From the NCBI GenBank assembly GCA_009746045.1, contig RPFO01000059.1, positions 1,869,716 through 1,933,715 of the forward strand: DNA of 64,000 nt, in the 5' to 3' direction. This document shows positions 760-44,006 of the stretch, in pieces. This DNA comes from Mesostigma viride (lineage: Eukaryota > Streptophyta > Mesostigmatophyceae > Mesostigmatales > Mesostigmataceae). The notes under the pieces were generated by a model. It made no database searches. It saw only the letters and a list, made by a program, of their open reading frames with translations, and was not told the DNA's origin. The position numbers and the translations under genes were made by a program. The stretch's first letter is position 1. Each line of letters begins with the position of its first letter.

Positions 760-1374
760 AGTTGCGAGAGGGTTGCACTGAATTCCGCCATGGTTCTTGC
801 AGGAAATGTTGCCTTTATTATGAATAAGGAACACAGACGTAAGTCACGTCACTTCCAAGACTACACGCAGCACAGGCGACAGGGTCGCAGTGCCAAGAGA
901 ACGTGCACGCAAGAACTAGCGTCCTAGAGCTACCAAGTCACACATATAGGTTGCTCGGGACGCGTCCAAGTATTCAGCTGTACTGTCACAGCTGAACTGT
1001 CAATCAATTGATTGCACAGACTCTGGCACGCCTTTGGCGCGCAGATCTATCAATTGTCCATACGGCTAGTCCTGTGGACCTATCCGTACACTGCTCAGCA
1101 TCAATTGTCTCATAGGTCCTGGCGCGCTACAGCACGCCTACCTATCAATTGACCATCAAGTCCTGTACAAGTCCTGTCAACGTCCTGCGGACTATCAAAG
1201 TGACACTTGTACATCCTGTGTCCGTACGCGCCCACAGTGGCGCGCCGGGTACTGTCGGCACAGCCTAGGAAACGTCATAACTTTTACGTTCCTTAACCAA
1301 ATGAGGCGTTCAAGGTGCCGTTGGAAAGAGCGTAACAATCTCTATCCATCTAACGTAAATCCTTTACGTTAACT
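760..1374 (-). repeat. 3' LTR of Copia-A
   Basis: Matches 7997-8611 over 615 bp with about three substitutions seen by eye (near 1076, 1091 and 1354). On the minus strand it starts AGTTAACG and ends GCAACT. A purine-rich tract, AAAGAAAAGAAGGGATTGG on the minus strand, abuts it at 1375-1393 and is the likely polypurine tract. Confidence 0.9.
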
Positions 1375-2322
1375 CCAATCCCTTCTTTTCTTTAGGGATC
1401 ACATCCCCTGCCAGGGACCCTTGAAGTAGCTTGAAATGTCCTTCACTCCAGCTTGAAGCTTGAACAGATGTCTTTAATGGCCATGCCATTCCCCCAGCCT
1501 TTTCTTTTAAGGAACTGGAAAAGAAACAGATCTGCCACAGGGAAAACCATTCCATGAGAAATGGATAAAAACCTATGGAAGTGGCATTACAGAGTACCAC
1601 CAGATATTAGAACACACAAAATTAAATACATACAGGTTAATTCTATGAGGTCTTCTCCAGGAATTAATCCCATCACCTCGGTAGAGCCTCCAGTACAATG
1701 ACCTTCTGGCGGTGAGTTACATTAATCCCAGATACTAATCCCATAAAACCCAGTACATATTCAATATAAGTACAATAAATCCATGACAATTAAAATACCA
1801 CTTGACAAAGTAAGGCGTATTACAATAGTTTGCCTGTCATTCTCTCAACAGGGGTCTATTGGCGCCCGTCTTACGGCGCCCGTCTACTTGCCAGATGGTA
1901 AACTGCCACAGCAAACAAATGACAAAATGAAACACATAGGCAACAATTAAATCCTGCCCTGGGGAACTAGGGAAGTCTGAACAGGCAAACACCTGAACAG
2001 GCCAGCTTGTAGAAACATAATACCAGGGAATCGAACCCCGCCCTATAAACCCCAGAATAAAGGTTCCCAGACCATTGTGAGAAGTATGTACAAATATACA
2101 TTTCTTTTAAAATAGAATACATGGTCTGTAATGGACCTGTCAACCTTGTGTAGTCAACAGCATGAACCCCAGCCAAAACCTGGCTGTATCCTGATTAAAA
2201 TCAGAGTGAGTGTACCATGGTCCATGAGCCTTAGTACAGACTAAAATACAGGTATTATGCCAGTCACAATGCTGACACTACCACACAATCTGCTCTCCAA
2301 TGCCCTATAACCAGGCACCAGC
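1375..2322 (-). other. Non-coding 3' region of Copia-A
   Basis: Lies between the pol stop and the 3' LTR. Short open stretches (for example 1364-1600 and 1967-2176) show no family features and I do not call them genes. It has the polypurine tract at its LTR end. A tRNA T-arm-like string near 2028-2045 has no cloverleaf around it. Confidence 0.55.
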
Positions 2323-5300
2323 TTAGACAGCTTGCTGAGATGGGTCCATCAGAGACTGAAGAACCTTGTATTGCACTGCTGCCTTCTGCACTAGCTTGGT
2401 CAAAGCATCAGCAGGATTGTCAACCCCAGGGATATGCTCAATATTGGCCAAGGAGGACAATTCCTTAAGAAGGAGATAATCCAAGTCCCTACTTCTGGCC
2501 ATCTGCCTGTGCACAAACTGCACCATCCCCATGGAGTCTGTTTTTAGAAGAGTGGTAACCTGAAGTGGCCAAGGAGTGTTAGAAGTCATCTGATGAAGCA
2601 ACTCCTTCAGATAAAGGCTTGTGTGAATGCCTTCACAAATAGCCCTGCATTCTGCCACATCACTGCTGACAGCCACCCGTTTGTGCAGGCGACTAAACCA
2701 GCTCACCAAACTCCCCAGGCCTTCCTGTCTGAGCACAAAGAGCCCTGCAGCCCTGCCCCTGACCTTGGAGACCTGCCTGCTGTCCATTGAGCTATCCACA
2801 TACAGCTCCATGCAAATGGGTTGTGATAAATCCACTGCAGACAACAGAATGCCAGATGAAGCCCTGACCTGATCAGCCACCTTGGCAGACCCTAGCTCCA
2901 TCAGCATGTCATCAGGCAACCTGGCTATGACCATAAGGTCTGGCCTGGAAATGCCTGCCACCCAAGCAACCATGCCCCTCACCATGGGACACAGTGCCTG
3001 TGTGATGACTGGAGGAAGCTTGCTAATGAGGGTCTCTTGATAATCATTGCCCCCCACCAGCAGCATACGCCACTCCCCCCCTTCTTCACCAGTGTGGCCT
3101 CCATGCCCACAAACAGCAGAGGCTCATTCTCCACCTGCCATTGCTCCCTACCCAGAGGAAACTTGGACTTAATGATGGAGATCAGCTCCTTAAGCCACGA
3201 CGTGGGAGCTATCAGATGTAGGTCATCCCCGTGCAGCGAAGCATACACTGGTAGGCCTTCCCATTGCCCCAGAAACAGACAGGGGTCTACAGGAGAGACC
3301 TTCAAGTTGCAATGCTCCTTCAGGAAACGGTTGAGAGTCTCCCTCCAGATTATTGGACTTGACCTCAGGCCCTCCAGGCCCTTGAGGATTTTAAGGAACT
3401 CAGTGTGAATGTCCCTTTTCCATACAGCAGGCACCCTAACATAGAAAGGCGTCTTGCCCTCCCACTTTTCCTGTGCCACATCTGCATCCCCCTCCAGAAA
3501 TGCCCTCTTGAAGTCTACCACCACTGAGCCATAGTCCAAGCCCTTGTTGAGAAGGCCTAGAAATACACACAGCAGCAGCCTCCAAGTGTCATGCAGCATG
3601 CCAGGGGTATACAACTCCTCAGCAGTGCACTCACCAGTACCCTTGAACTCATTCAGCACTGGCCTGACATGTGGTACCTTGACCCCGTCCACCTCCTTCA
3701 TCTTGATGACAAACTTGAGCTTGAGTAGACGTCGTGCAGGAGGCAGGTCATTGACAGGTTCCACGCATTTCTTGGAGATCCAGTCCTCCCCAGATTTAAT
3801 CAGACCCAGTGTGACCTGGGGACACATAATGGGAGAGGACATGAGCTTCACCAGGCCTTGGTAGTTGATAGGGCTGTGTCCAGCAAGTGAGTGAGGACCA
3901 ATGCCCAAACTGCTTGGATGACTAGCAGCTGGCAGTATGAGGTCATCAACCAAGGGCTCCTGCCCCTGGCACACTTGCACACGCTTAACCGACCTGGTTA
4001 CTGCACGTGATAGGTGAGTGGTCCTGAAATTAATCAGTGGGACCTGACCAGCCCCTTCCTTAGTCAGGAGAGAGGACGTGATCACTACCCCATCCTGGCA
4101 TAGGAAATTCTGCCCCAGAAGAGCAGGTCCCTGATAGCCCTCCAAGACACAAAAAGCAGTGTCCTGTCCAAGGATAGGAATAGATACCTCACCCAGTACC
4201 TTCACGTGTACCCCGCCACTGAAGTCAGACACAAACTGATAGCTGGGTTCAGACATGCTGTACCCTGCTGCAGCTCTGGTCCCAATGATGGAAACCTGAG
4301 AATTAGTGTCTACCTCTAAGGCAGTGTCCAGCCCCAGATTGCCATGCCACCTGAGCTTGGCTACCTTGGGCTGCTTCTTGGCCCTTTGCAGAGCCCCAAT
4401 CAATCCAGCCAAACTTGTCCCCCTGGGCTTGGTTAGAGCCTTGGGCTTGACAGTTGACTCCCCAGCTGTTGACCTTGCAGCCTGTTCAACAAGTACCTCT
4501 GCAACCTGGCCAGGGCTGACAGATTCCCCTGCAACAGATGTGGTCGTTGCGTCAGTGATGTCACTTGGGACCTGAAAATCCTGCAGATCCTGTGAGCCTT
4601 GTGCCTGACTGCCCTCATTCATCAGGTTAGGCTTGACATATGACCAACTCAGCCGGTGTACATGCTTTGGTTCGTCCTCCATGCTGACCAAGCATGCGTG
4701 GCTAGCTTCATCAACCTGGGTAACCACCCCAGGACTCCAGCTACCACGTTTGCCATAAAGGCTAGGTTCCTTCCAAGCTAGGACCTTCTGACCCACTTGT
4801 GGCTCCAGCATCTTCCAACCCCGGTCCTTCTCCCTCAGCTTGGCAAAGGTGACATGTGCAGCATGTTTCCAGCCCTCCAGCACATGTGGTGGGCACAGGC
4901 CATGATATAGACCCATTGGGCTGACAGCAACTCCATCATAGTAGAAATTGACCCTGCTGTTCAGCTGCTGCTCCACGTTCCTCAGCCATGCACTCCTGAC
5001 AAGTGCAGGTGCAGACAAGGGTACCCAGTCTTCAGAGATGATCAATTTCTTGACCTCCTGGATTGCCCTCTCTATAGCACCCTGCTGCCCATGAGCCTCC
5101 CTAGGTGTAACCAGCAACTCAGGAAGGGTGGGATCACCCTTGAGATGCTGAAACTGCATGTCCACCTGGATCCTTGTGGTAGGAAACTTGGCTCTTACAT
5201 TCTGCAGGGCAGCCAGCAAGTACCTGTTCTTCATAGAAGGTAAATGCTCTAGCACCTTGTATTTGTGTACCTGTCCACGCACACCAACAGTTGCATGCCC

Positions 5301-5806
5301 CTGATGTGTTGGATATCACACTGCAGATCACCAATGCTCTGAGGTAGAGCTTTGGCATGTGATTTCCTGGGCTTGTTGGAGGACAACTGGCACTTACACC
5401 GTGAGGCAGCTTGCTGACACGCCTTGAGAAGGGGTGCCCTGCCCATACGGAAGGCAAAGTTGTTTGACAGAGAAGTGGCATGCCCAAACATGTTGTGGAT
5501 TCGGGCACCCAACTCCTGGTACACGGAGGAAGCAGTCCCTGGCACAGTCAGGACTGTGCTGTCAGGTTGTCCAGCATCACCATGCTGACTTCCATCCTGT
5601 TCTGACTCAGAGCCTGAGTCACCCTGCTCATGCCCAACACCTGGACCGCCAGCAGGGACCACATGCATACCACCAGAGGCCTTCACACCCCTCTGTGGTT
5701 GTACATTGGTTTCTCTCAAAATGAGAGGTCCACCCTCGTGCCCAGCACGAGGATGCATGGGGTCAGACATTCTTACAGCTGCACCAGCTGTCAAGGACGT
5801 CTTCAT
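2323..5806 (-). CDS. Copia-A pol: integrase, protease-like domain, RT, RNase H
   Basis: A Ty1/copia-type polyprotein with the domains in an unusual order. Integrase comes first: an HHCC zinc-binding segment (HNMFGHAT and CKCQ, about 5390-5500), core acidic residues in LQCDIQH and RIQVDMQF, and the catalytic Glu in HGQQGAIERA (about 5070). A retropepsin-like segment follows, with LEVDTNSQVSIIG (Asp codon 4308-4310) and ALLGQNFL. RT comes next, with VVVDFKRAFLEG and the active-site box LHGDDL (3219-3233) where YVDD is expected. RNase H is last (YVDSSMDSR, AECRA, KTDS, VDNPADALTK). Two apparent frameshifts, near 5265 in an A run and at 3091-3097 in a run of seven C (G on the coding strand), break the frame; each is repaired by one base. 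No second protease is seen between gag and integrase. Confidence 0.88.
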
Positions 5807-5946
5807 AGGAACCTGTACCTCTCCAGGTGACCTGGGGCCACCTGAACCTGGAGATCACCCTCTTGTTGCCCAGATATAAAATCTGCATTGGAGCACCTGG
5901 CCTCCCCCTTGGGTGAATTAAGGTGTGTAGGGGTTGCCTCAGACAG

Positions 5947-7061
5947 TCACTGCTCCTTGTTGTCTTCTTGTTGACTGCCCTTTGAAGGCTGGCCTGCCTG
6001 GGACTTGTTCTTGTTGTTGTTTTTGTTGTTGTTATTCTTGTTGCTGCCCTGGCCCTGGGTCTTCTTGAAGCTGGGACACTCCTTCTTGATGTGCCCCCAC
6101 CCCTTGCACAGGTAGCATTGGATCTTTGACTTGCCCTGGCCACCGCCCCCGTTGTCAGATGCGTTGCCCTGCTTGGGCTGACCACCCACCCGCCTGAACA
6201 CCGACTTGGAGTGTGACCTCCCGTCAGGGTCGGGTGAATGATTGGCCTTCCGCTTGTTGTGGTTGCCCCTACGCCCTCCTTGGCTTCTGTCAGCCTCAGA
6301 CGATTTGGAGCCCCCCTGGGTACGCCCACCTGCCTGGGTTGCCTTCACTGCTGGCACTCCACCCTCAAACAGCTCCTCTGCCTCGAGAGCTTGCTTGATG
6401 ATGACCTTGTAGGCCTTCAGGGTGGAGTGTGGGCACACATGACCTTTAGAGATCCACGTGTGGCCTTATCCAGCCCAGAGACCTTCAACCAGTTGGTCAG
6501 GGCTATATTGTCTGCCACGTTGAAACCGTGGGCCCTGCCTTCCTCAACCATTTTGCAATAGTTAAGAAAATTCTGGATGAGATCCCCCTTGACCTCCCAC
6601 CCTTGATACTTGTCTTGCCAATGGATGCCGACCTTCTTGCGTTGGTCTTCAAGCAGCTCCTTCAGCTCAGCTACATACAGCGCCCAGGCCTTATTGGCCT
6701 TCTTGCACTCCCTGGTCAGGTCCTTAATCTGGTCAGTACACTTGCCAAAAGTGCTACTTCCTATCCAGATCTGATAATAATTTGTACCACCGTACAAGCT
6801 AGGGAACCCTTCCAATCCTTCTACAAACTCTTCAGCCTGCTTAGGCTTGGAGTCTGAGGTTACAGGTTGCAGCTGATTAACAATTAAAAGACCCTGAGTG
6901 GTGAGGTCAAATCCATGAACAGCTTGTGTATTATTAGGGTTGTGATGCACATTGGTAATTTCCCCGGTGACACCCACGTCATCTACGTGAGCTGTCCCAC
7001 TACCCGCACCACCATTATTCCCACTGGCTGGGGCACCCTTGCTACGGCGCCCGTCTGCCAT
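5947..7061 (-). CDS. Copia-A gag with CCHC zinc knuckle
   Basis: Structural protein of the virus-like particle. It begins MADGRRSKGAP at 7061. A helical region follows (about 6440-6850), then a basic tail with a CCHC knuckle, CYLCKGWGHIKKEC (about 6075-6120), and an Asn/Lys-rich low-complexity end. The two halves are in different frames and meet near 6420-6438, so the sequence shows one frameshift; I cannot tell whether it is real or an assembly indel. Pol starts just downstream in another frame, so Gag-Pol would need recoding or a separate message. Confidence 0.8.
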
Positions 7062-7222
7062 GATACTCTACAAGCTGTCCTAGAAACACCTGAGCAAAGC
7101 AGCAAAACAAAGTATGTACAACTGTCGACTATTGCCGCCTGCACCGGTGTCGCCGCCGCCCCCGCGAAATGCCGTTGAAATGTCGACTAAATGCCGACGA
7201 GCACTGGAAAATGGCCGACGTT

Positions 7223-7972
7223 TTAATAGTCAAGGCCCCGAAAATCACAGTACTCATATGCAAACTCTGGATCCTCCATGTCTGGCGTGTGAGCCGGACC
7301 CGCACCGGTATGGATCAAAACCGGTGTATTCGCCGGGTTTTGCGTCGGGTCAAAAATCGCAATGCGCCGACGCGCGACGAGGCGAAGAGGATGCGTAAAA
7401 ATGGAAAGAAGCTCCCAGCCCGCTGGGATCCACTCACGCAAGGCCGAGAGAAATGCGACCAGGTTTATGAGGACCTGGCGCTCGCGAGTGCGAACGCCGC
7501 GAGTGAGCAGCGAAAGCAACGCGATGTCCTGAAACAAATTTGTAGTGACCACCGGCGCGCCCCCCGTGCGCGTCGAGGCCCAGTTTTGTAAGTTGCGCTG
7601 GTACCCGGTGAGCGATGAAATTGCGTTATCCACCTCCTCGATGGCGGTGGTGACTTCGTTCACCGAACGCAGGCCTCCGCGGACCTGGACCGTAAAAGCC
7701 GAAAGAATATTTTGGATTTGGTCTAATGGACCACGAATCGCCGGCACCAGCTGCGGCAGGCGGGGGTCTTCGGGAAAATCTCCCAGCAACGGGAGCGCTG
7801 CTCGCTGTCGACGATGTAACTCGTCGAGGGAAATCGTGACTTCGTCAAGGAGAGCTTGCCACGATGGAGCAGCCGGCCTCGGCTCACGCGGACGTGGAGC
7901 CGGTAATGGATCTGCCGGCGGAGCAGCTACTTCCTCATCGGTAGGAATGCGGAAGTCTTCGGAATTCGGCAT
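7223..7972 (-). CDS. Extra ORF upstream of gag in Copia-A (unknown)
   Basis: A 249-residue ORF starting MPNSEDFRIPTDEE, 25 bases inside the 5' LTR, so it is the first protein on the element's transcript. It opens with a Pro/Ala-rich acidic segment. A long predicted helical part follows (TISLDELHRRQRAALPLLG, VNEVTTAIEEVDNAISSL, IALLSLLTRGVRTRERQVL). I recognise no domain; it could be a capsid-like or accessory protein. Copia-B has an equivalent but non-identical ORF in the same place, which suggests an accessory gene of this lineage rather than chance. Confidence 0.6.
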   Translation of the reverse strand: MPNSEDFRIPTDEEVAAPPADPLPAPRPREPRPAAPSWQALLDEVTISLDELHRRQRAALPLLGDFPEDPRLPQLVPAIRGPLDQIQNILSAFTVQVRGGLRSVNEVTTAIEEVDNAISSLTGYQRNLQNWASTRTGGAPVVTTNLFQDIALLSLLTRGVRTRERQVLINLVAFLSALREWIPAGWELLSIFTHPLRLVARRRIAIFDPTQNPANTPVLIHTGAGPAHTPDMEDPEFAYEYCDFRGLDY

Positions 7973-7996
7973 GATCGTGAAAAGGCGAGTAATACG

Positions 7997-8611
7997 AGTT
8001 GCGAGAGGGTTGCACTGAATTCCGCCATGGTTCTTGCAGGAAATGTTGCCTTTATTATGAATAAGGAACACAGACGTAAGTCACGTCACTTCCAAGACTA
8101 CACGCAGCACAGGCGACAGGGTCGCAGTGCCAAGAGAACGTGCACGCAAGAACTAGCGTCCTAGAGCTACCAAGTCACACATATAGGTTGCTCGGGACGC
8201 GTCCAAGTATTCAGCTGTACTGTCACAGCTGAACTGTCAATCAATTGATTGCACAGACTCTGGCACGCCTTTGGCGCGCAGATCTATCAATTGTCCATAC
8301 GGCTAGTCCTGTGGATCTATCCGTACGCTGCTCAGCATCAATTGTCTCATAGGTCCTGGCGCGCTACAGCACGCCTACCTATCAATTGACCATCAAGTCC
8401 TGTACAAGTCCTGTCAACGTCCTGCGGACTATCAAAGTGACACTTGTACATCCTGTGTCCGTACGCGCCCACAGTGGCGCGCCGGGTACTGTCGGCACAG
8501 CCTAGGAAACGTCATAACTTTTACGTTCCTTAACCAAATGAGGCGTTCAAGGTGCCGTTGGAAAGAGCGTAACAATCTCTATCCATCTAATGTAAATCCT
8601 TTACGTTAACT
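7997..8611 (-). repeat. 5' LTR of Copia-A
   Basis: A 615-bp direct repeat of 760-1374, followed on its outer side by the CCCTT duplication. On the minus strand the base after the LTR begins CGTATTACTCGCC, so a standard initiator-Met primer site beginning TGG is not evident. Confidence 0.9.
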
Positions 8612-8616
8612 CCCTT

Positions 8617-9245: not shown

Positions 9246-9513
9246 TTGCGCCACGCAGGCCTGCCGGCTGGCGCAGGTACAAGGTGTACTGACTGCCAAT
9301 CACAGTTGCGCCACGCCTGGCGGCTGGCGCAGGTAACAAGGTCTAGTGACGTACGTTAGAAGCTACCTAGGCCTGCACTCCGGAACCACACTCAGCCTCG
9401 GCACAAAAGGGCCGGCCGGTGCAGTACCCTCGTGACAAGTGCTAGTCTTACGCTACCTACGGCAGGTCGGTCCCCTTTGAGCCCGTCCACGCGTCATATA
9501 TAAAATGAGCGAA
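9246..9513. other. Non-coding junction with a 60-bp duplication
   Basis: Two direct copies of a segment containing GGCTGGCGCAGGTA and CAAGGT sit at about 9246-9290 and 9307-9350. The rest is unique and has no ORF with family features. It borders the truncated end of gypsy copy 2 at 9514. Confidence 0.4.
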
Positions 9514-10690
9514 GCTCAGCAAATCAATACGAGGTAGAGGGCATTTAGACTTCACAGTGATATCATTTAACTTCCTATAATCAGTAACTAAGCGAAACTT
9601 GCCATTTGGCTTAGGGACTAACAGGGCACCAGCTGAGTAGGGGGAGTTACTAGGCTCTATCAATCCTGCTTCTAATAGTGACACTAAAATCTGTTTTAGT
9701 TCCTTTAACTCGGTAGGGCCCATTCTATACATCGGAGAGTGCGTAGGAACTGCACCGTCCTTAATAACTACACGGTGTAAAACAGAACGAGGAGGAGGAT
9801 AAGACGGAGTCTTTTCTTCAAAAACTTTGGAGGAATCTATCACAGCCATGTATCTTACTATTTCGTTTTCAGTAAATCCCACCCCTATTGTATCCACTGT
9901 GTTCACATCTATATCCACACTATTATTAGGGATAGGTATCTCCTGTACTTCTAACTGAAGGAACATACATAATAAATATCCATATTCCTTTAATTCAGAT
10001 CGCAATTCATCATTGGACATTAATACTTCAGGTATAGGTCTTACAGGAGGATCAGCAGGTGTAGGAGGAGTAATATCTACCAAGGATAAATTTTCTACTC
10101 TATAATGACGTTCCGGTACCCAGTAAGAGCTATATGGAAACCAGATGACCATGGTATCATAATTAATAGTAATCTTATTATCCTGGTGCCAATCTAATCC
10201 TAGTAATACATCAGCGGTAGTGATAGGGCCTATAGTGGCCGTCAGGTTGACAGTACGTCCTTGTATGACCAGGGGAAGGGACACCGTACCCGGGGAATGA
10301 CTGGTGCGACCGTCAGCATAATGGACAGTGACAGGTTTGGTGTGAGGGATAGGGACTAGTCCTAAACGCCTAACTAGGGCCTCGCTCACAAAGGAGCTAG
10401 CCGCACCACTATCCACTAACACAGAGACATTCAAAAGTTCATCAGCATGCAAGAAGGGGTCTACAACAGTGTGGGGAACGGTTAAGCCACCATTCAAAAA
10501 CATAAGAGGACGGACACGTAGTGGTAGGGATGATTCAGCTCCTACAGAAGTTATAAAAACAGGCAGGCAAAAATTATTATCTGGGGTACTATCTAAGGAC
10601 CTGTCCAGGTTACCCCCGGCTGACAGGCCTACTGTTCCCCCTCCCCCCCAAATCCATAGGGACTAACCCCGAAGAAGACCCTGGCAAAAA
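9514..10690 (-). pseudogene. Ty3/gypsy protease and RT N-terminus (copy 2)
   Basis: A retropepsin with an intact active site, VLVDSGAASSFVSEAL (about 10380-10420), and the downstream DVLLGLDW motif (about 10190-10220). A linker and the start of RT follow (GALLVPKPNGKFRLVTDYRK, then PLPRID). Homology ends at 9514, so the RT catalytic core, RNase H and integrase are gone. Upstream, the frame extends past the first ATG (10503) to about 10642, where a C7 run (10643-10649) shifts it. Beyond that, at 10690, the 16-kb TIR element is inserted. The gag of the same element resumes at 26950-26985 and 35363-37026. Confidence 0.85.
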
Positions 10691-26985: not shown

Positions 26986-27391
26986 AGTTAGATATAGATG
27001 TACGTCGGAGACGTTGGGGACTCAGTGTGAGAATGATGGATGCAGCAACGCCAGGGATCGGGCGTTCCTTGTCATTATTCACTCCATATGTGGGCACACA
27101 TTATATGTCGTGGACACATCACTCACACGAGATCCCTAGGACAACTGGACTACGCTCAATTGTCCCCCACGTGTCCAGGCTCTAGAGGCTTCTAGACCTG
27201 GAGCAACGTTACTACGCACAACGTCCACCAGACTAGTTGCTAGCTACGTAACTTGCGTACACGTGTGTGCGTCGCGCCACAACCGGCGCTCGGCACCGTT
27301 ATTCAGTCTCCGCCAGAATAACTCCGGTCACATTGTATGTTCCCCTGTGTGGCTCCGGCCACAAGTCAGCCTCGAGGTATCTCAGCTAACT
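26986..27391 (-). repeat. 3' LTR of Copia-B
   Basis: A direct repeat of 34948-35357 lacking GATC after GGGACTC. On the minus strand it begins AGTTAGCTGAG and ends TATATCTAACT. A purine-rich GAAAGAAAACATAATGGG tract (27392-27409, minus) lies just before it. Confidence 0.9.
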
Positions 27392-28400
27392 CCCATTATG
27401 TTTTCTTTCAGATTGGAACATGCTCCAAGTCTGACCAACCAACCGTTGCAAGGCAACTAGAGCCCATACAGTCACAACTGGATTAGAAAAGGGCCCCAGA
27501 AACGGACTATACTGATGCTGACTGCTGATTTAACCCGGGGGTTCCTCCCCCTCAATAGTGGGGAAAACATAAATGAGGTACTGCGGCCATTCGTCACACA
27601 GGACGTCATGCAAGTCACATGTCACAGCATATAAGGAGTGCCCAGTTTCCATCTTTGAAGGAGCGAATTGTCGTCATTTCCCTGGCATCTGTCACTGCAG
27701 ATGGTAGAAAAAGGGGGGCTTGATTGCCACTTGTGGATGGAACCCCATGCAACATCCACTTCCCAAAAACCAATGGGATGACTCTAGTGAAACCAGAGGT
27801 CTTCCCCAGGTGCTTAGGACCTGATGTTTTGCCACTGCTGACCTGGGCCAGAGCAGCCAGATACCTGTGAGTGCCACATGGTGGTAAGCACAGGCAACTG
27901 ACAAGTGGGAACTGGTTCTCCACTTGATTTGCACATGGCGAATGGGTGGACTGCCCATCACCCTACCACAGGTCCTGGGACCAGATGGCAGCATAAGACA
28001 CAACAGGCACAGTCACAGGACTAAGACTGTCACACGTTACATGCACATGCACATGCACATGTACAAGGTAACCATGAACATGACCCAGCCACATAACAAT
28101 GCCATGTACAAGTACTGTCACCATGACTGACACAATGACACACTTGTGAAGGATTGACAGCTCACCTCCCAAGAGATGAGCTAACGAAATTCCATGAGAG
28201 AGACAAAGTCAAAGAGACTCAATTTATTCACCATAAAACAGGGCTTACAAGGCATACAGGTTCAGCTCCTCCCCAGGAGCTAGTGCTGATGATAAGACAC
28301 CCCGTGGCCTGGGCCCGGGTCTGGGTACCCCTACCCCCTGACAGGGGTTGCCCCATAGTAGGGGTGGGGAGACTAGCCACCCTCCCTGGGGAGGGGTGGA
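27392..28400 (-). other. Non-coding 3' region of Copia-B
   Basis: About 1 kb between the RNase H stop and the 3' LTR. It includes a short CACATG run near 28040. No ORF with family features. Copia-A has a matching 0.95-kb tail. Confidence 0.55.
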
Positions 28401-31400
28401 CTAGGTGTCTACCGGCGGGGGCAGGCTGGCCTGCTTGCCGTAGGGGTTCATCATGTGATAGAGCAGTTGGTACTGCTCAGGTGCTAGCTGGGGCACCTTG
28501 GTCAACGCATCCGCGGCGTTGGCCTTGTCCGGCACATGATTGGTAGACTCCCAGTAGGTGCACTCCTGTTTCAGGATCACCCAGTCCAAATCAGTATGCA
28601 CAGCATAAGGGTTGTCAAGGAAACTGAGGAGAGATTGACTGTCGGTGTGCAAGTGAGCCACCACCCCAGCCTGACTGCCTGCTTGCTTCTGTAACCAAAC
28701 CAGGACATGATTGAGATACCTGGCATGTAGCACAGCTGACACAACTGCCCTGCACTCAGCAGCATTGCTACTAACAGCTTTACGCCTATGTAGCCTGCTA
28801 TACCATGAGATGAGTGACATGGGTTGTCAGCATTTTGTACAAAAAATAAGCCAGCCTCCCTAGCCTGCAGTTGAGTAATCTGCCGTGATTCCATGGAACT
28901 GTCCATTATAGCCTGAATGTGAATGGGCTTAAAGAGTTCCAGGGAATGCAAGATAAGGGGTGGACCAGCCTGCAGGAGCTTGTTGATAGCCTTGTGGCCT
29001 ACCTGCATAAGAACTGCATCATCAACCCTGCTGACTACTGCCAAGTGTGGTGCACAAGTAGAACACAACCACCCCAGCTTGCCCCTAATGGTGGGACAGT
29101 CACAAGGTTTGATTTTAGTCTGCAGCACTCCTTACAACTGTGCATGTAATCTGATGGAGAGTACATTGCACAGACCCACTGATCTGCTTGCTTCTGAAGC
29201 TGCAACATTGTGCCACAGAACTTAATAGCAATGGTGCCCAGCTCTAGCTGCTTGCCAATCTCAAAAGACTTAGACACGTTGGCAATAAAATCATCCACAG
29301 CCTGCCTAGGCCCAGCAATAAGCTGATCATCCCCATGCCACACAAACATGATCATGCCATGAGGGTGAGGGACAACAAAGAAGCAAGGGTCTATGTCATC
29401 ATACCGAGCACCTAGCTTCTCAAACACAGCTTGAGCTGACATTCTGAAAATTCTAGGAGCAGATTGCAGACCTTCCACTCCTATGTTGGCTTTCAGAAAT
29501 GGTTGTGGGATATCCTTAGACCACACCTGAGGTGTGTTGACCACATACACCTTCCCATGCCAAACTTGCTCAGCTATTTCAGGTGAGCCTTTCAGAAATG
29601 CACGTTTAATGTCAGTGGCTTTGCACACATAATCATCACCTTGATTGATGTGCCCTAGAAAAACAGACAGCAAAATTTTAAGAGAAGTTTGCTGAATGCC
29701 AGGTGTATACAGGTCTGCCTCTGTCAAATCAGTGGATCCCTTAAACTCAGTCACACAAGGCCTAGCATGGAAAATGACAGAGCCATCTGCTGCTTGCTTG
29801 TGCTTGCACACGAACTTAAGTCTTAGGTGCTTGCTCCCGTTGGGCTTACGCTCTAAGGGAGTGACTGGAGGTGTGTGGGTGGGACTACGTGGATCTGGAA
29901 CCACCCATTCATCCATAGCCTTTCTAAAAGCTTCAACCCACTTAGTGAAACCTTCCTGAGTTTGACAGTCCTGGACAATCTGCTCATAGGAGAGGGGAGA
30001 CATTTTTGCAACATCATACTTTCCCAATCCAAATGCTTTGGGGTGCAGTTTCTGACTGTGCACCAAATCTGCCACACGTGGCTCGTGCCCAGGTGCATAC
30101 TTTGGTGCAACAAATTTGACAGTGGCTGGCTGTGTGTCAACCAAAGTCTGGAGTGGTACCTGAAAATGATCAAGTGACACCCCACCCAGGCCCTGTACCT
30201 CAAGCCTATCACAAGAGATGGTGACACCTGGGTAAGAAATAAATGGATCACCCAACAAAGCATTTCCTGTGTATCCTTCCAGTACCTGAAAAGGTGTGGG
30301 GATACCAAGAATGTTTAAGGTAACCTGACCTTTAACAGTCAAGCTAGCCTGCCCAGAGAAATCAGCCACCCGTTGCCAAGGGGAAGGCTCTAACTCTAGG
30401 TGTGGTACAGCCAATGCACTGATGATGCTAACCTGAGCTTGGGTGTCAACCGCGACTAGAGCTGGATTGTTGTCGCTGTGACCTGCCCTACTCACTTTGG
30501 CTGACCCTGCAGCAGTGTGAGCTTTGGCTCTATGCGCTGCTTGCAGTATGCGGACCGCTTCTGCTAGCCCATGTTTGGACACGGTAGGTATGGGTTGAGC
30601 TGGTACCGCTGAAGGTGTGCTGTCTTGCTGACCACCTTCTTGGTTAGTGCCCTCATTGACAGGTGGTCTAACCTGCTGTGGCTGGCTAGGCTCACTGAGG
30701 GTGACCTGGGGTGCACATGTGTTGTGGCTATCACACTCACCAGTGTGTGTTCCAAACAACCACTCACTGGGTACTCCAGATATACCAGGCAACTGTACTG
30801 AGCTGTCGACCATCAGCTCTTCCTCCTCTGCCACGTCTGACAGTGGAGTGTAATACAATTTAATCCTGTGAGGTGAGCACTTGTGCACATGCCCAGTGTC
30901 ATTGTGTTTCACATGCACAGTCTTGCCTGTGCTGGAAAACTTAAGGATAGTGGCTGGGCCTAACCATGTCCCAACCTTCCCTAGCCCTGACTCCTTATAG
31001 AAGAGAACTGTGTCCCCTTCCTTGAAGGAGGGGCGTGGATGCTTGGCATCCTTGGCTGCCAATCTGCTGGCAGCGTGGGCACGCTGTGCATTGTACACAG
31101 CTAGTACCTCAGGTGGGTATATCCCAGCCTGTAACCCATCTGGTGTGATAATACCATAGGGTGTCTGCAGGAGTGGTCGTCTATTGAGTATCTGGCATAT
31201 CTTAGTAGCCCACAGTGCCCTATCAGCGTATGACCCACTGTCAGCTAACAGGTTCTCACCTTCTTTGGCTACCAAGGTTTTGATAGACCTAATTGCCCTC
31301 TCAATGATACCTTGTCTCTCATGATCTTCTAGCCCAGCCAGGTCTATAGCTTCACAGCCCTCTGCCCCAGCAAGGCAACTAAATTGCTGATCTAACAGCA

Positions 31401-32196
31401 GTGCTTCTACTGGGTAGTACCTGGCTTGTGCTATTAATATAGCTCTGTGCAACTGAGACTTGTCCATACCAGGGAGAGGTTCTATTGCTGTGTACCTGGA
31501 CCATGCGTCCTTTAAAGCCAGATAGGGCTGTCCCTTAATATGGAACACATCCCCGACCACTCTGCCCTTGCACTTAGGTGGTGTAGCTACATGCCACTTG
31601 GGTGGTTTAGGTGCATACATTTGGCAGTGCTGACAGTGTTTTCTGATCAGCTGACATGCCTTCCTGAGTGCCGTACCTCCCAATGCAGCTGCTACCACCT
31701 CTGCACATGTCTCATGACCATACAGTAAGTGCAGTTGCAATGCCAGCTCCTCATAACTGATGTTACTAAGAGCTTGGGTCATGACCCTGGACACCTTGGG
31801 TATCAAGGAGGTGAACCTGGGTTCACTGTCAGAGGTTTCTGTGTAATACTTCAACACTTTGCCAACCTTGCTTACAGCCTTGACAGCTGAGCATGAAGGT
31901 GGAGAGTGAGAGGTAACAGAGTTAACTTGACATCCTGTCAACATCCTCCCATCCTGTGTCCCTGCCTGGGCAGTGGAGCTGGATATTGGGTGGTGTAGGG
32001 GACACGACTCATCATGACACGTGTGAGGGTGTGAGGACTTACATTTGGGGGCTGCCACGGCTCCTTGGTGCACTTGGCGGGGTCCCCGTGAGGCGGTCCC
32101 AGGCACTTGTGGCAGAGCACCTCCAGGTGCGCCAGGTGCTCCTTGTGTTTGTGGCACTTGTCCTTGCTGTGTCCACGACGCCCACAACGCACACAT
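28401..32196 (-). CDS. Copia-B pol: integrase, protease-like domain, RT, RNase H
   Basis: Integrase first, with HHCC (LYGHETCAEV, KHCQHCQMY, about 31610-31720), acidic core positions around VVGDVFHIKG and LLLDQQF, and the Glu region QGIIERAIRSI (about 31290). A retropepsin-like domain follows integrase: ALVAVDTQAQVSII (Asp codon 30445-30447) and NALLGDPFI. RT comes next with ATDIKRAFLKG and the active-site box VWHGDDQL (29323-29340). RNase H is last: IMDSSMESRQ, NAAECRAVV, HTDSQ, NAADALTK, stop at 28401. Between RT and RNase H the frame changes twice (near 29120 and 28820). The first about 150 codons after 32196 overlap the zinc-knuckle frame and may not all be translated. No protease lies between gag and integrase. 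Confidence 0.88.
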
Positions 32197-32201
32197 TTCA
32201 C
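31938..32201 (-). CDS. Copia-B zinc-knuckle segment of gag
   Basis: Begins with MKCVRCGRRGHSKDKC, a CCHC knuckle, followed by a second Cys/His group, CHKCLGPPHGDPAKC. It lies immediately after the gag ORF (stop 32198) in another frame, so it is probably the 3' part of gag joined by frameshifting or separated by a one-base assembly indel. It would bind element RNA during packaging. Confidence 0.65.
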   Translation of the reverse strand: MKCVRCGRRGHSKDKCHKHKEHLAHLEVLCHKCLGPPHGDPAKCTKEPWQPPNVSPHTLTRVMMSRVPYTTQYPAPLPRQGHRMGGC

Positions 32202-32920
32202 ATCCTTCTTGGGGGTGGAGGACCCAGCCCCAGAAGACTTGTTAGCGTTCCCCCCTGGGGGGATGACCTACCCTTCCCCTTCCCCTGCCCCTTGCCCTTG
32301 CCCTTGCCCTTGCCCTTGCCCTTGCCCTTGCCCTTGAGGCTCTTAACAAACTGACTCATAAGAGTCTTCACCTCCCCTAGCGTCACAGGACGCTTGTCCT
32401 TGGCCTTCCTGGCCTTACCCTCCTCATCTGATTCCTCCCCCCGGGCCCGCTTGACAGCAGGGGGGGAAGAGGTAGAGGGGGGAGGGGCTGAGTCCTGACA
32501 CAGTGGACCCAGGGCTAGCTTAACATAATCGAGAGCCTCTTTCATCGACTCCCAATGGGTGGCCAAGCCTGTGGTGATCATGGCAAAGGTGTTACGATCA
32601 AGGTTAAGCTTCTCGAGCAGGGAATGAACAAGCCACTTGTGATCTAGCTTGCTAACCTCGGGGTGGGCCTTCACTGCAAGTTCCCACTTCTTGATCTCTG
32701 CTACATAGTTCTGAGTTTCTACCTTATAGGTTTTCACCCAGTTAAACGCAGAGTACATGTCAACAGTGGTGGGAGCAGACAGCAGGTCATGCAGATCACG
32801 CAGAAAATTCTCCCATGGCTCCCTACCCTGTGTGTCCTGCCACCTGGGATACCTTTGCTGATATATGGATACCAAGTGCTGGATGGAGGGATTGGATTGG
32901 TGGAAGAAATCACCCTGCAT
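32198..32920 (-). CDS. Copia-B gag
   Basis: A UBN2-like copia Gag shape: helical N-terminal part (IQHLVSIYQQRYPRWQD, FLRDLHDLLSA, WVKTYKVETQNYVAEIKKWE) and a Leu-rich middle. It ends in an acidic/basic tail with a (Lys-Gly)n run encoded by a repeated plus-strand CCCTTG hexamer (about 32275-32336). The tail could bind nucleic acid. The zinc knuckles follow in the next frame. Confidence 0.75.
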   Translation of the reverse strand: MQGDFFHQSNPSIQHLVSIYQQRYPRWQDTQGREPWENFLRDLHDLLSAPTTVDMYSAFNWVKTYKVETQNYVAEIKKWELAVKAHPEVSKLDHKWLVHSLLEKLNLDRNTFAMITTGLATHWESMKEALDYVKLALGPLCQDSAPPPSTSSPPAVKRARGEESDEEGKARKAKDKRPVTLGEVKTLMSQFVKSLKGKGKGKGKGKGKGKGQGKGKGRSSPQGGTLTSLLGLGPPPPRRM

Positions 32921-33023
32921 GAGTGCCCCAAACCAGTTCTTGATATTCAGCTCCTCCCTAGCAGCTTGAGAGAGAGAAGAAGCTGAGCACCCTGCTGCCT
33001 AGTATACCCCTCTGGCAGCCCCC

Positions 33024-34937
33024 TCACCATAATCCTGTCAATTGGCCTATGCTCGTTATAACTGGCCAATCCTGAGAGGGTGAGAGGGAGAGGGAGAAGA
33101 AGACCTGCCTGGGGATGTAGCAGCATTGGCAGTGTTGGGATGCTAGGTGAGACCTGTGAGGGCCTGCTACGCGTGGCTGGCTGCACTGGGGGTTAGGTGC
33201 CTGCACAACATGTGCTGGTGAAGATGACATGTCCATGCCCCCCTGCACACCCTGACTCTGTGCCTGCCTCTTGCGTGCCCTAGCTGCCTCCCATTGCTCA
33301 AAGGTAGGGGTGAGAGAAACATCACTATCCTCACTGCTAGATGAGCTTGTCTGCTGCACGTCCCCCCCTGCTGGCTACCTGTCTGTACACGCAACCAAGT
33401 GGGGAGATACATACTTGCTTGCTGCATGCACACCCGGTGCAACGTCTGCACCATCTCCACCATCACGCCCAGATTCACCCTGATCTTCTTGCCTCGCAGC
33501 AAGGTCTGCAGGGCGGGAAGGAGTGCCTCGCACATCCTCCTGGTCATCGGCTCGATCGAGGGTTGATCGAGCAAATGATAGATGATCGCACACAACAGGC
33601 TGGTGTGTTCAGCCAACCTGTCGTCCAGCCTCTCGCTGGCCACCCCTTGGATACCCTGGGCGCAGCGCTGGACTGCGCGCCAAAGGGTTGGCTCACGGAG
33701 TGAGACGACGTCATCCCCAGGGATGCGTGCCTCGGCTGTCTCCATGGCCACATCCTCCTCGATCCCCTGGGGGAGATGGATGATCCCTTGCCACGGCCTG
33801 GGCCGTGTCAGGTCCCTTGCCGGCCCTGCCGGGGGCTTGGGACTGCGATGGGGGTGCCGAAGCACCCGCCTTCGCGGGGGGGTGGGTGTTGATGGCGTCG
33901 GTGTCGTCGGCTGAGGCCGACGGTTCCGACTAGCTCAGCGGCGGGTGTGCCGTGGGGGGGCGGCTGGCGCTTGCCCTCCGCCCGCCTGGGGGTCGCTGCC
34001 GCTGTCGCTGTCGCTGCTGCTGTCGCTGTCGAACCAGGGGATGCCGTCGCAGGTCCCCAGCCGACTGGCACGACAGGTGGCATCCTTGGCATCTCCTCGG
34101 CCGGCCTAGGTGGCTTGGCCACCACCGTGGCCGCTGCCACCTGGCGAGCCTCCGAATACATGTCGAGAGCAGTTACACCTTGTCTCACGGCCAAGTAGTA
34201 CAGCCGGATCAGAATCGCAACCTGGACATGCGAAAAGCGGCAATGGACGTCCTCCGGGAGCTCCGACGCCACCGCCTGAACCGCGAACTTGGTCAAGACG
34301 AAGCCGCCAGGGAGGGTACTCTGCTGGCGGAGACGCCAGCCGTCGAAAGGCAAAAAGTTTGGTACATTACGCACCGGGATCTTAAAGGGGATCTGGCCCC
34401 AACCGTTAACATAGACCTCACCTGCGTCCTGGGACGCAGGGGTCGGGTTCGCGCCGAGGCTCATGCCTGCCAGCGCCCTCCCGACAGAGGTGTTGCCGGA
34501 CGATGACCTCGTCTGGCCGGAGGTCACCTCTCTCCTAGGAGAGGGTGAAGCCTCCCCCTCCTCCGAAGAGGAGGAATCCTCTTCCACCTGTCGCCCTGGG
34601 GCGGGTGGCATGACTGCATGAGGTGCGGGGCAACCTCGGACTCGTTGCGAGTCCCGGTGCCCCTGTTCCCCTGGGGGGCAGACGCCTCGGCATCGACAGC
34701 TTCACGCTGCCGGGGAGGGGTGTCCGCCACCACCATGCGATAGGTGACATTGTCGTCACGCTCACGCAGTGGGGAACTGCGAGGAGAAATTCTCCTCTGA
34801 GACGCCGTGAAAGGCAGTCTCGCGGTGATGGGGGGCTCCCGGTTAGCGGGAGGCCGACCCCGACCGTTTCCTGCCCCTCCCCGTCGAAGGGTGGGGCGGA
34901 CATTGTTGTTTTTCGCATCCGAGTTCTTCGGCGCCAT
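33024..34937 (-). CDS. Copia-B extra ORF region upstream of gag (unknown)
   Basis: Starts MAPKNSDAKNNNVRPTLRRG, 11 bases after the 5' LTR. Coding potential runs through three or four frames: 34937-34524 basic and Arg/Pro-rich; 34611-33808 with WGQIPFKIPVRNVPNFLPFD; 33865 to about 33380 with DDRLAEHTSLLCAIIYHLLD. Joining them gives a long protein with a disordered head and a helical body. I recognise no domain. The switches suggest indels, some at short G/C runs, rather than introns. It occupies the position of the extra ORF of Copia-A but shares no obvious sequence by eye. Confidence 0.5.
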
Positions 34938-34947
34938 TTCTAATCCA

Positions 34948-35357
34948 AGTTAGATATAGATGTACGTCGGAGACGTTGGGGACTCGATCAGTGTGAGAAT
35001 GATGGATGCAGCAACGCCAGGGATCGGGCGTTCCTTGTCATTATTCACTCCATATGTGGGCACACATTATATGTCGTGGACACATCACTCACACGAGATC
35101 CCTAGGACAACTGGACTACGCTCAATTGTCCGCCACGTGTCCAGGCTCTAGAGGCTTCTAGACCTGGAGCAACGTTACTACGCACAACGTCCACCAGACT
35201 AGTTGCTAGCTACGTAACTTGCGTACACGTGTGTGCGTCGCGCCACAACCGGCGCTCGGCACCGTTATTCAGTCTCCGCCAGAATAACTCCGGTCACATT
35301 GTATGTTCCCCTGTGTGGCTCCGGCCACAAGTCAGCCTCGAGGTATCTCAGCTAACT
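34948..35357 (-). repeat. 5' LTR of Copia-B
   Basis: A 410-bp direct repeat of 26986-27391 with an extra GATC. The outer flank is AAGAG (35358-35362). Confidence 0.9.
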
Positions 35358-39986: not shown

Positions 39987-42690
39987 TCAAGTCACACAGG
40001 AATGCAGGAGCCGTCCTCGAAGCAGCTCGAAGCGTGGTCGCGGAAGTGCCTTGGTCAGGATATCCGCCACCATCTCCTCACCGGGGCAATGTTGGACATT
40101 GATGTCACCATCCTCCACCTTCTCACGAATGAAGTGGAAACGCACGTCAATGTGTTTTGTGCGCTTGGGGTGAACCGGGTCCTTGGAGAGTGCCACAGCA
40201 CCGGTGTTGTCGCAGTAGACCGGAGTAGGTGCAGCCGTAGTAGAGCCCGTCAGCTCCATCAAGATCCTCCGCAGGGGGAGCACCGACTGCAGCAAGGTGC
40301 CCGCAGCGATGTACTCGGCCTCGCATGAAGAAAGAGCGGTCACCGTTTGGCGGCGGCTTGCCCAATCAATAGGGGCACCAGCGTACATGACCAGGTTGCC
40401 GCTGACAGACCGCCTGGTCTTGACGTCATTTGCCCAGTCCGCATCTGACCAGCCTTCAAGGCTCCCGCCAGTGAAGCGGAGACCGAGGCCGTGGGTTGCC
40501 AGCAGGTAGCGGATGACCCGCTTGGCAGCCTGCATATCACCTAGCGTGGGTGATTGCATCTGTTGCGCTAGGCGGTTGACAGCGAATGCCACGTCTGGCC
40601 GCGTCCATTGGGTGACGTAGATGAGCGCCCCCACTATTTGCTGGAACACCTCCCGTTGCGATTGGTCACACTGTCCCCCCTCGCTCAACACGGCACCCGG
40701 GACAACCGGGGTGGGAACACCACGACTCTCACCTAGCCCAAAGCGGGCAGCAATTTCTATGATGTAGGGAGACTGGTGCAGGGCAAGGGAACGGGTGACG
40801 CTGTCAATAGAAAGACACACACCTAGAAACAAGGAAGGGTGGTCCGATTCGGACAGCTGAAAACGTGTACCAAGGCGAGAAACCCAGGCGGCTACCCAAG
40901 GGGCAGAGGGGCTGGCAACGATCATGTCATCAACATGTACAAACACAAAGCCCCTAGCACTGGGATAAAGGTAAAGACATGTGTCTGTAGCGCTAGGCAC
41001 TGCACCATCCGACACGAGATGAGAACGGAAGGTGCGATGCCAATTGCGCGGAGCCTGACGTGTGCCATACAGGCTGCGATGAAGCTTCCATACAAGAAGC
41101 TCGCCAGAGGCGTCATACTCCTCATAGCCCAGGGGTGGACGTACATAGACATCCTCCTCTAAAGGAGCATACAAGAACGCAGTGCGGACGTCTAATTGAT
41201 GCAGAGTATAGCCATGCGTGACTGCAAAAGCAAGAGCCAAACGCACTGTGGAGGAACGAACAGTGGGGCTAAAGATGTCCTGAAAATCAACACCCTCACG
41301 CTGGGCATAGCCCTTGCATACAAAACGTGCTTTCTCACGTCCATCCGACTTACGTGCATACACCCAACGGGAAGGAATGGCCGAAGTGCCACGAGGAAGA
41401 GATGACCTACTCACCAAAGAAAAAACCTTGTGAGAACGAATAGAAGCCATCTCGCTATCCATGGCGGACTGCCACGCAGGAAGAGAACGAGCTTGTTGCC
41501 AAGACTTAGGGACGTCCAGGTCGACACTAGTGGCATATACATCCTCGACCACATCACGAATAGCAGCGTAATTTGGGCAAAAACGGGCCCACTTAGGAGA
41601 AGCAAGACGTTGAGAAGAGGAGGTCCAACCATAGGCGCCATATGTGTCACTAGAGGGACAGTAGCCATCGCCAACATTTTCCTCAATCGTTGCAGCAGCT
41701 ATCACCGAATCCGCCCCTGCCTGGTTGCTGGGCGCTGAAGATGAAGGTCGCTGCAGTGCGTGGATGGCTTGCTGCAAAGCCGTTGCACTCGAAATTTGAG
41801 GCGCAGGCGCAGGCGAGGGCGCAGGAACTCCTTGCGCAACTTGGTTGCCGGCGTCCGGCACCGCATCAGAAATTTCAGAGTCAGGAGCAGCACCCGGACC
41901 AGGATGCTCAGCGTTGCCACTGCCGTCTGCACCGGTGACAGTGCCCAGCTGTTGGCGAGCCTTGGCCCTGGTGACCGGACCATCAGGTACCGAGTCAGGC
42001 ACAGCAGTGACAGGCGGCAGCACTGCAGGCTCAGTGGGTGCAGGCAAAGGTACCAGCGCCACGCCAGATTCCGAGGCAGACTCAGGTGCCGGCAGCTGGA
42101 AGTTGACATCTGGACTCGCGACGTGCAGGGGAGCAGAATTTGCTCGCCAAGTCTCATCGAATGACACATGGAGCCTGCGAATAACGTCACGTGAGCCTGG
42201 GCGGAGAATCAGGTAAGCAGGCGACTCCAAGTCATAGCCCACAAAGATTCCAGCCTGGGCTTTGTCCTCCAGCTTGCCACGTGGCCCTTCTACACGAAAG
42301 TAGGCAGGGCAGCCGAAAATGCGCAAATGCGACAGGTCGGCATCAACGCCTTGAAAAAGGCGATGAGGGCTAGCAGAGTCTGCATTGGCCTCGCATGGCA
42401 GCCGATTGAGCAGGTAGACAGCACACGCAAAAGCTAGGGCCCAGAAAGTCTTGGGCAGGGTAGCATAATGCAGCATGCACAGTGTCATTCCCATCGCCAA
42501 ACCCCACATGCGTTCCGCAACTCCGTTTTGCTGCGGACAGTAGGGGCTGGAAAATTCTTGGTGAACTCGATGGCGAGCACAGAGGGAGCGGAAGTCCTCG
42601 GAAAGAAATACTGCGTCATTGTCGGTCCTTAGAAGCACAGAACCGTCGTAGTAGGGCCTGATATCCCTTGACAGTCGGTCGGTCGAAGTG
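39987..42690 (-). CDS. Copia-C pol 3' part: integrase core, RT, RNase H
   Basis: The frame reads from the second half of the integrase core: RTDNDAVFLSEDF and SSPYCPQQNGVAER (catalytic Asp and Glu). RT follows, with LDVRTAFLYAPLEEDVYV and the canonical FVHVDDMIVAS box. RNase H is last (SDADWANDVKTRRSVSGN, LSSCEAEYIAAG, YCDNTGAVAL, KTKHIDVRFH-like end), stop at 39987. It is separated from the upstream frame by a tandem GGTC duplication at 42677-42684, which adds 4 bases. Its normal order and VDD box make a built-in control for Copia-A and Copia-B. Confidence 0.92.
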
Positions 42691-44006
42691 CAGTGGCACC
42701 TCACTCTTCTGGCGCATAGGAAAAGACCAACGCCACCTTGTAGCGTCGTCAGTGATGCCCAGAATGTACTGGGAACCGCCCAGTGATGGCTGCATCGGCC
42801 CCATGATGTCCCCATGCAGCTTGGCACGAGGCACGGTCGAGCGTGGTTGCCCAGCAGCGAAGGAGCGTCGCCTAATCATGCCAGCAGGGCACGACGGGCA
42901 GCCTGGCGCACCTGGAGCCCGCATGGTAATGTTCGATGCAGGTATGGCCGCCAGCTTGCGAATGCGCTCAGCACCTGCATGTCCAAGTCGCCAGTGCCAC
43001 AATAGTGCAGCAGGGTTGTCTGTGGTGTGGTGGGCAGCAGGGGTTGTCACAGTCTGTGATTCTTGCAAACCGTAGACGTTGTTCTGCACCTTGATAGGTA
43101 CCTTGCTGCCTGCAAAGCATGCCACGCCCTGCAGTAGGTTCACCTCGTGTCCCTGCTGATGCAGCTGGGCCACGGAAAGAAGCCTTGCACCCAGAGAGGG
43201 CACGTGCAGAGCATGAGGCAGATGCACCACCTTGTTGGCGACTCGTAGCTTGAGCGTTCCCGTCCCCACAGCCTTCAGCCGGCCTCCGGAGCCCTGGATG
43301 GCCAGGTTGGTTGGCTGAACCTTGATAAAGTCAGCCTCCTCAGGGCTCATGTGGCTGGATGCAGCAGAGTCCAGAATCCAGAAAGGTACGCCCGGCACTA
43401 GGCGCGTAGTTGCAAACGCGTAGTCCACGGGAAGCTCAGGAGCCTCCACCGTGTTGTTCGCTGTCGCAGCCTGCTTCTTCTTCTGGTTCTTGCGCTTTGG
43501 CCTCTGCTGGCCCTTCTTCTTGCTGAGATGTGGGTACTTGGTATAGCACGTCTCCTCCGCATGTCCTTCCTTTCCGCAGAATGTGCAAGTCGGCCTCCCC
43601 GGCTTGGTTGGTTGGCCTGTGCTGTATGCTTGGCCTTGGGCAGCTGCTGGCTCAGGCTTGACCGTGGTGGTGGAGCGCGTCCCCACAAGCAGGTCATCTG
43701 CTTCAAGCATGGCCTTCTTCACCTCCAGCAGCGACATGTCCTCATCGAACCTGGTTGAAACGAGGGCAGGCCTATACGCATCAGATAAACCACCTTTCAG
43801 CGCAGCGGCAAAATCATTGTCTGCCAACACCCCCCCCACATCCCTGTACTCACTCAGAAGCAGTTCTGAAGCGGTAAGATAGTCCATCATGGACTGGTTG
43901 GGCTGCTTGGTCAGCCTCATTAGGGATGTCCTCAGGTCGTGCTTGTTGCTCTTGGTCAGTTTAGGCTGCTCAAACACCTCCACCAACTTAGCAAAAAGCA
44001 AACTGC
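42616..44006 (-). pseudogene. Copia-C gag C-terminal part, protease and integrase N-terminus
   Basis: Gag continues after the transposon insertion (LLFAKLVEVFEQPKLTKSNK) and has the CCHC knuckle CTFCGKEGHAEETC (about 43555-43600). The protease active site is FWILDSAASSHMS (about 43355), DSA instead of DSG. Then come the integrase HHCC (LWHWRLGHAGAERI, CPSCPAG) and the first core Asp in LHGDIMGPMQ. The frame ends at 42616 because of the 4-bp duplication at 42677-42684. The native start is on the far side of the insertion at 51929. Confidence 0.9.

Follow-up and report, generated by a model that had tools for sequence, protein, structure and literature searches.

A comparison of the retroelements described here with the Ty1/Copia elements (Pseudoviridae) shows a series of shared features, namely LTRs, a gag with zinc knuckles, an integrase (INT) encoded upstream of the reverse transcriptase (RT), an RT of the RVT_2 type and an RNase H after it. 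Unlike in Ty1/Copia, the protease-like domain of these elements lies after INT and not before it. In the Gypsy lineage Gmr1, the protease lies before INT, and the INT of foamy viruses follows RNase H. In the accessible parts of the respective sources, the canonical Copia order of protease, INT and RT/RNase H is described for CoRex1 (PMC3587641), Gmr1 is described as having a Copia-like INT order within Gypsy (PMC2774666), and the foamy virus protease is placed at the N terminus of RT (PMC6669543). Gmr1 is a known case of a changed INT position, and the elements reported here are like the foamy virus PR-RT in carrying a protease-like domain at the N terminus of RT. Their RT is Copia-type, whereas that of Gmr1 is Gypsy-type and that of foamy viruses is retroviral. 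A limited search of partial literature found no published INT-protease-RT order.

The window analyzed, by which we mean the whole 64,000-nt stretch of DNA, belongs to an assembly of 440 Mb in 2243 contigs, and all window coordinates given below are on the minus strand. Two LTR-bounded families are present in it, the Copia-like element A (760-8613) and element B (26986-35357). An ordinary Copia element (39987-44001) served as an in-window control; its Pfam domains (Pol_BBD, gag_pre-integrs, rve, SH3_retrovirus and RVT_2) follow the usual order, with Pol_BBD (E=1.2e-13) ahead of INT. The window also holds a Gypsy-type protease with a DSG motif (9457-10503; gag-asp_proteas E=1.2e-10), located upstream of an apparent RT start. 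Other families account for 150 scored RVT_2 places in the genome.

Element A is bounded by 617-bp LTRs (5' LTR, 7997-8613; 3' LTR, 760-1376), and its insertion is probably recent because the two LTRs are 99.5% identical. Its gag (5947-7061) is split in the window copy into two frames, 6417-7061 and 5947-6438, the second of which contains a CCHC zinc knuckle (Pfam zf-CCHC E=0.00087, below cut-off). An interval at 5501-5946 separates gag from the first recognizable pol domain; where a copy has the 989-aa open frame, this interval amounts to ~149 residues of the pol frame. The first-pass annotation had proposed that the A pol at 2323-5806 encodes an HHCC/DDE integrase, then a retropepsin-like segment, then RT and RNase H, and this order is borne out. 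INT comes first (4584-5500, ends approximate), with the HHCC residues, the D, D, E triad and a C-terminal part; in the window copy its frame shifts near 5255-5264, in addition to the frame change in gag. Next is the retropepsin-like segment (4017-4370), which reads VDTNSQVSII ... DFSG ... ILG ... ALLGQNFL; VDTNSQ is located at 4313 and ALLGQNF at 4124. It is followed by a Copia-type RT (3060-3725, end approximate; RVT_2 E=3.1e-6) with LHGDD as its active-site motif, and finally by an RNase H frame (2323-3066) that is Copia-like by eye but has no Pfam match. The INT profile had HIV integrase as its best match (E=0.0048), other retroviral integrases also being found, and a whole-pol profile gave, listed along the protein, integrase (0.045), KdpC chains (0.056-0.063) and HIV-type protease (2.2-3.0). 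The RT motif HGDD is common to all three families discussed here (window 3233 and 29337; L049:4302); the usual RT active-site motif is Y[VLI]DD. Both A and B also carry an open frame of 267-282 aa upstream of gag (7223-8071 and 33808-34611, respectively), with no Pfam match at E<=0.1.

The same order is present in two further families. Element B, with LTRs at 34948-35357 (5') and 26986-27391 (3') that are 98.8% identical, has a pol open frame of 1053 aa (29035-32196) comprising INT (HHCC near 31731), the segment (30154-30513, reading VDTQAQVSII ... ALLGDPFI) and RT from ~29826 down. Over pol, A and B are 32% identical. Used as a query against the genome, the B segment scored at least 150 places; among the matches listed, 56 are 96-100% identical, and 94 at 72-76% identity define a third family, C. 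Reading covered seven of the 94 listed, with long stretches of L048 and L049 and the segment region of L050-L054. The gag of L048 continues straight into INT, with one frame change within INT, while L049 has gag, two zinc knuckles (called by eye, with no Pfam match), INT, the segment and RT in a single open frame. The L049 frame stops at a foreign insertion within RNase H, after position 4661. RVT_2 scores for B and C (39.7 and 36.9 bits) exceed the cut-off of 31.6, and that of A (27.4 bits) falls below it. Elsewhere in the genome, at G000:C1501:57031-61095, two B-type segments lie ~3.6 kb apart, each in a 2252-aa open frame; these are perhaps one frame holding a tandem or nested pair.

The frame changes in the window copy of A raise the prospect of a chimeric or misassembled copy, which would make the order an artefact. 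We regard this as barely credible, since the segment occurs in at least 150 A-type places and at least 150 B/C-type places on many contigs and in three families; on the same counts, the order is not due to chance. The A segment alone identified at least 150 scored genomic places, those listed being 98-100% identical to it. A 767-aa A frame that starts inside INT retrieved 59 scored places. Each matches at 99-100% identity, and every one of them (59/59) is free of stops from mid-INT into RT. Around the match, 38 of the 59 have a 989-aa open frame with HHCC included, so at least 38 copies lack the INT frame change. The order INT, retropepsin-like segment, RT and RNase H is supported in families A, B and C.

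The claim that no protease is visible between gag and INT has also held up, on the evidence of a profile of the gap, the A rows and the unbroken C frame. A profile built from the gag-INT gaps of A and B had no matches in PDB at E<=10. Pfam detected no Pol_BBD, which we take to be the Copia protease domain, in the frames scanned, namely those of A, the pol frame of B and the polyprotein of C, the control Copia being positive. There are nonetheless some hints of a canonical protease at this position that could have been missed through divergence or frame changes: another frame of the gap in the window copy reads LDSWCS, and 23 of 33 A rows contain a DSG in an acidic stretch of the gap. For B, the Pfam scan covered the pol frame. 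The DSG is replaced by DSD in 9 of the 33 rows and missing in one, it has no hydrophobic flank and it lies only ~40 residues before HHCC. In the unbroken frame of L049, ~80 residues separate the last zinc knuckle from HHCC, which is too short for a protease; there is no D[ST]G among them, and both D[ST]G of the C polyprotein fall within INT. We rejected the gap DSG of A as a protease because of its sequence context and its absence from C. Unless C gained its order separately, the C frame opposes a missed protease in the other families as well, and we consider this explanation very improbable. A Copia-type protease placement between gag and INT was not found in A, B or C. INT does not follow RNase H as it does in Gypsy elements.

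Whether the segment is a retropepsin, as the first-pass annotation held, has received a more qualified answer. It is like clan AA retropepsins, including gag-asp_proteas and HIV-1 protease, in having an Asp-Thr pair, a flap-like motif and ILG/LLG motifs that are similarly arranged and spaced, and in having members of this clan as its best Pfam match and, for two of three segment profiles, its best PDB match. It is unlike them in lacking the catalytic glycine and in sitting between INT and RT. Pfam gag-asp_proteas matched five of eight segment sequences, with a best E of 0.035 and scores below the curated cut-off where shown, and it was the best Pfam match of the B segment (E=0.035-0.039), covering nearly the full profile. 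One of the eight also matched TAP35_44 at 0.033; a longer A segment had no Pfam match, and a longer C segment matched only FBA_2, at 0.21. Searched against PDB, the A+B segment profile returned HIV-type proteases in 20 of 25 listed matches, residues 57-104 of the profile aligning in register with 50-97 over the flap-to-ILG half. Its top E of 0.0033 sums over both copies of a tethered dimer, the best single chain having E=0.13. With C added, 11 of 14 listed matches were HIV-type proteases, at E=0.05 for a tethered dimer and 0.92 for a single chain. An eight-sequence profile (A6) was instead led by antibody light chains (E 0.18), and the 25 listed also included tethered proteases (0.56 and 0.83) and DDI1 (0.52, across the DT half, and 0.53). 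The B segment alone had two PDB matches, neither of them a retropepsin.

Structure prediction added little to this picture. AlphaFold models built with two and eight sequences were of low confidence (pLDDT 30.4 and 39.9), and Foldseek with the eight-sequence model returned 100 matches at E<=10 and none at E<=0.001; two HIV-1 protease chains among the best 50 of the 100 (E 6.2 and 6.9) were not used as evidence. In pairwise comparison by hhalign, the DT motif aligned in register with that of the window's Gypsy protease, though not significantly (P 0.09-0.11). The proposed profile and structure check therefore came out in part: HIV-1 protease is the top PDB family in two of the three profiles and the matches agree with one another in register, but no single-chain match is significant and the models are poor. 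An unrelated beta-rich domain that resembles retropepsins by chance is a further reading, for which the weak, alignment-dependent matches and the pLDDT values of 30 and 40 speak. Two libraries, Pfam and PDB, nevertheless indicate the same fold, and the order and spacing of DT, DFSG, ILG and LLG are those of retropepsins. Within the window, a signature of the segment drawn up post hoc matched A and B and nothing else, with no hits in 200 shuffles, and it misses the Gypsy protease. We consider a chance resemblance quite unlikely. It is certain, judged by its sequence, that the segment is a conserved domain, and a retropepsin origin is likely. No relatives were found in viral contigs.

Between A and B, no other part of pol is as well conserved as the segment, which has 42% identity compared with 37% for RT, 31% for INT and 16% and 22% for the linkers, and ALLG is present in all eight aligned segment sequences. 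Between B and C, its dN is 0.17 and its dS 1.9. Variation within A was examined in 34 rows with an unbroken INT-RT frame, some places being represented twice, which comprise 19 distinct sequences. Variable codons (synonymous/nonsynonymous) number 11/2 in INT, 6/2 in the INT-PR linker, 8/4 in the segment, 5/1 in the PR-RT linker and 20/3 in RT, and the segment is thus under constraint within A, though looser than INT and RT. The D, T and N of the A motif are invariant, the N being present in 19 of 19 distinct sequences.

That a working protease remains an inference follows from the replacement of the catalytic glycine, with DTN in A and DTQ in B and C (eight B/C sequences) in every sequence read, where DTG or DSG would be expected; the first-pass annotation does not mention this replacement. 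A DSQ motif has been described for some foamy virus proteases. A review gives foamy virus proteases as DSG in its accessible part (PMC6669543). The segment could be derived from a retropepsin and no longer be a peptidase, serving instead as a folding or dimerization module for the INT-RT polyprotein, with cleavage in trans by the protease of other elements, by a host protease, or not at all. Elements with their own protease do exist in this genome, the control Copia and the window's Gypsy element being examples. Loss of the Asp is what one would predict for a dead domain; all three families retain the Asp-Thr pair even though the glycine is replaced, and the domain that contains it is the most conserved in pol between A and B. 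On balance, loss of peptidase function is unlikely, if by no great measure.

We place at roughly 0.6 the probability of the reading we prefer, that A, B and C represent a Copia-type lineage with the order Gag-INT-retropepsin-like-RT-RNase H, in which no upstream protease was found and the retropepsin-like domain, acquired by replacement, would dimerize and cleave the polyprotein. Dimerization would take place in the assembled particle and would be followed by cleavage between Gag, INT and PR-RT, the domain probably acting as a PR-RT unit. As to its entry, the old Copia protease would have been lost and another protease captured. An alternative is that the ancestral Copia protease moved across INT with no capture, which differs from the preferred reading on origin only. 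The Copia-type RT and the detection of only one retropepsin-like domain in each element are compatible with such a move. The domain itself does not look like a Copia protease. According to the accessible part of Llorens et al. (PMC2642776), the C-terminal motif of Copia proteases is usually ILS, as opposed to ILG in nearly all the rest of clan AA. The segments of A, B and C differ from Ty1/Copia in having LLG at this position and DTN or DTQ at the active site, and the HGDD motif of their RT is a further difference from Ty1/Copia. The absence of a Pol_BBD match from the scanned frames of all three families also speaks against a moved protease, as does hhalign with the control Copia ORF, in which the protease of that ORF was not aligned to the segment. 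Replacement is favored over moving because the domain looks non-Copia while the RT is Copia-type, and a move is rather unlikely. A more specific form of replacement, in which a Copia-derived clade lost its Copia protease and captured an LLG-type retropepsin that now has a working DTN/DTQ site in a PR-RT enzyme, is tentative, and we think the odds lie somewhat against it.

In C, represented by L049, the parts from gag to RT occupy one polyprotein frame. In A, gag ends in CAG TGA CTG with pol directly in frame (~5944-5949; L042:3035-3046), and this junction string is present in 34 of 39 rows, corresponding to 28 of 33 distinct places, which suggests that readthrough of the UGA stop joins gag and pol. 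Both the window copy and eight of eight long A copies encode RNase H in the -1 frame relative to RT, and a G GGG GGG run (3075-3081) lies in -1 frameshift phase in the overlap of the two frames. The run is present in 39 of 39 A rows, or 33 distinct places, and a -1 frameshift there could join the RT and RNase H frames. RNA folding around the UGA and around the G run was not significant (z of +1.0, +1.1, -1.3 and -1.5).

In conclusion, we have identified three families of LTR retroelements in which a conserved retropepsin-like domain lies between INT and RT. The order of pol domains helps to define the families of LTR retroelements, and an INT-PR-RT order breaks this rule. This order departs from the usual order of pol and may reflect the loss of the original protease and its replacement. 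If the protease was replaced, the pol of a retroelement can lose and then regain a protease, and if the DTN/DTQ site works, it would revise what counts as essential in retropepsins.
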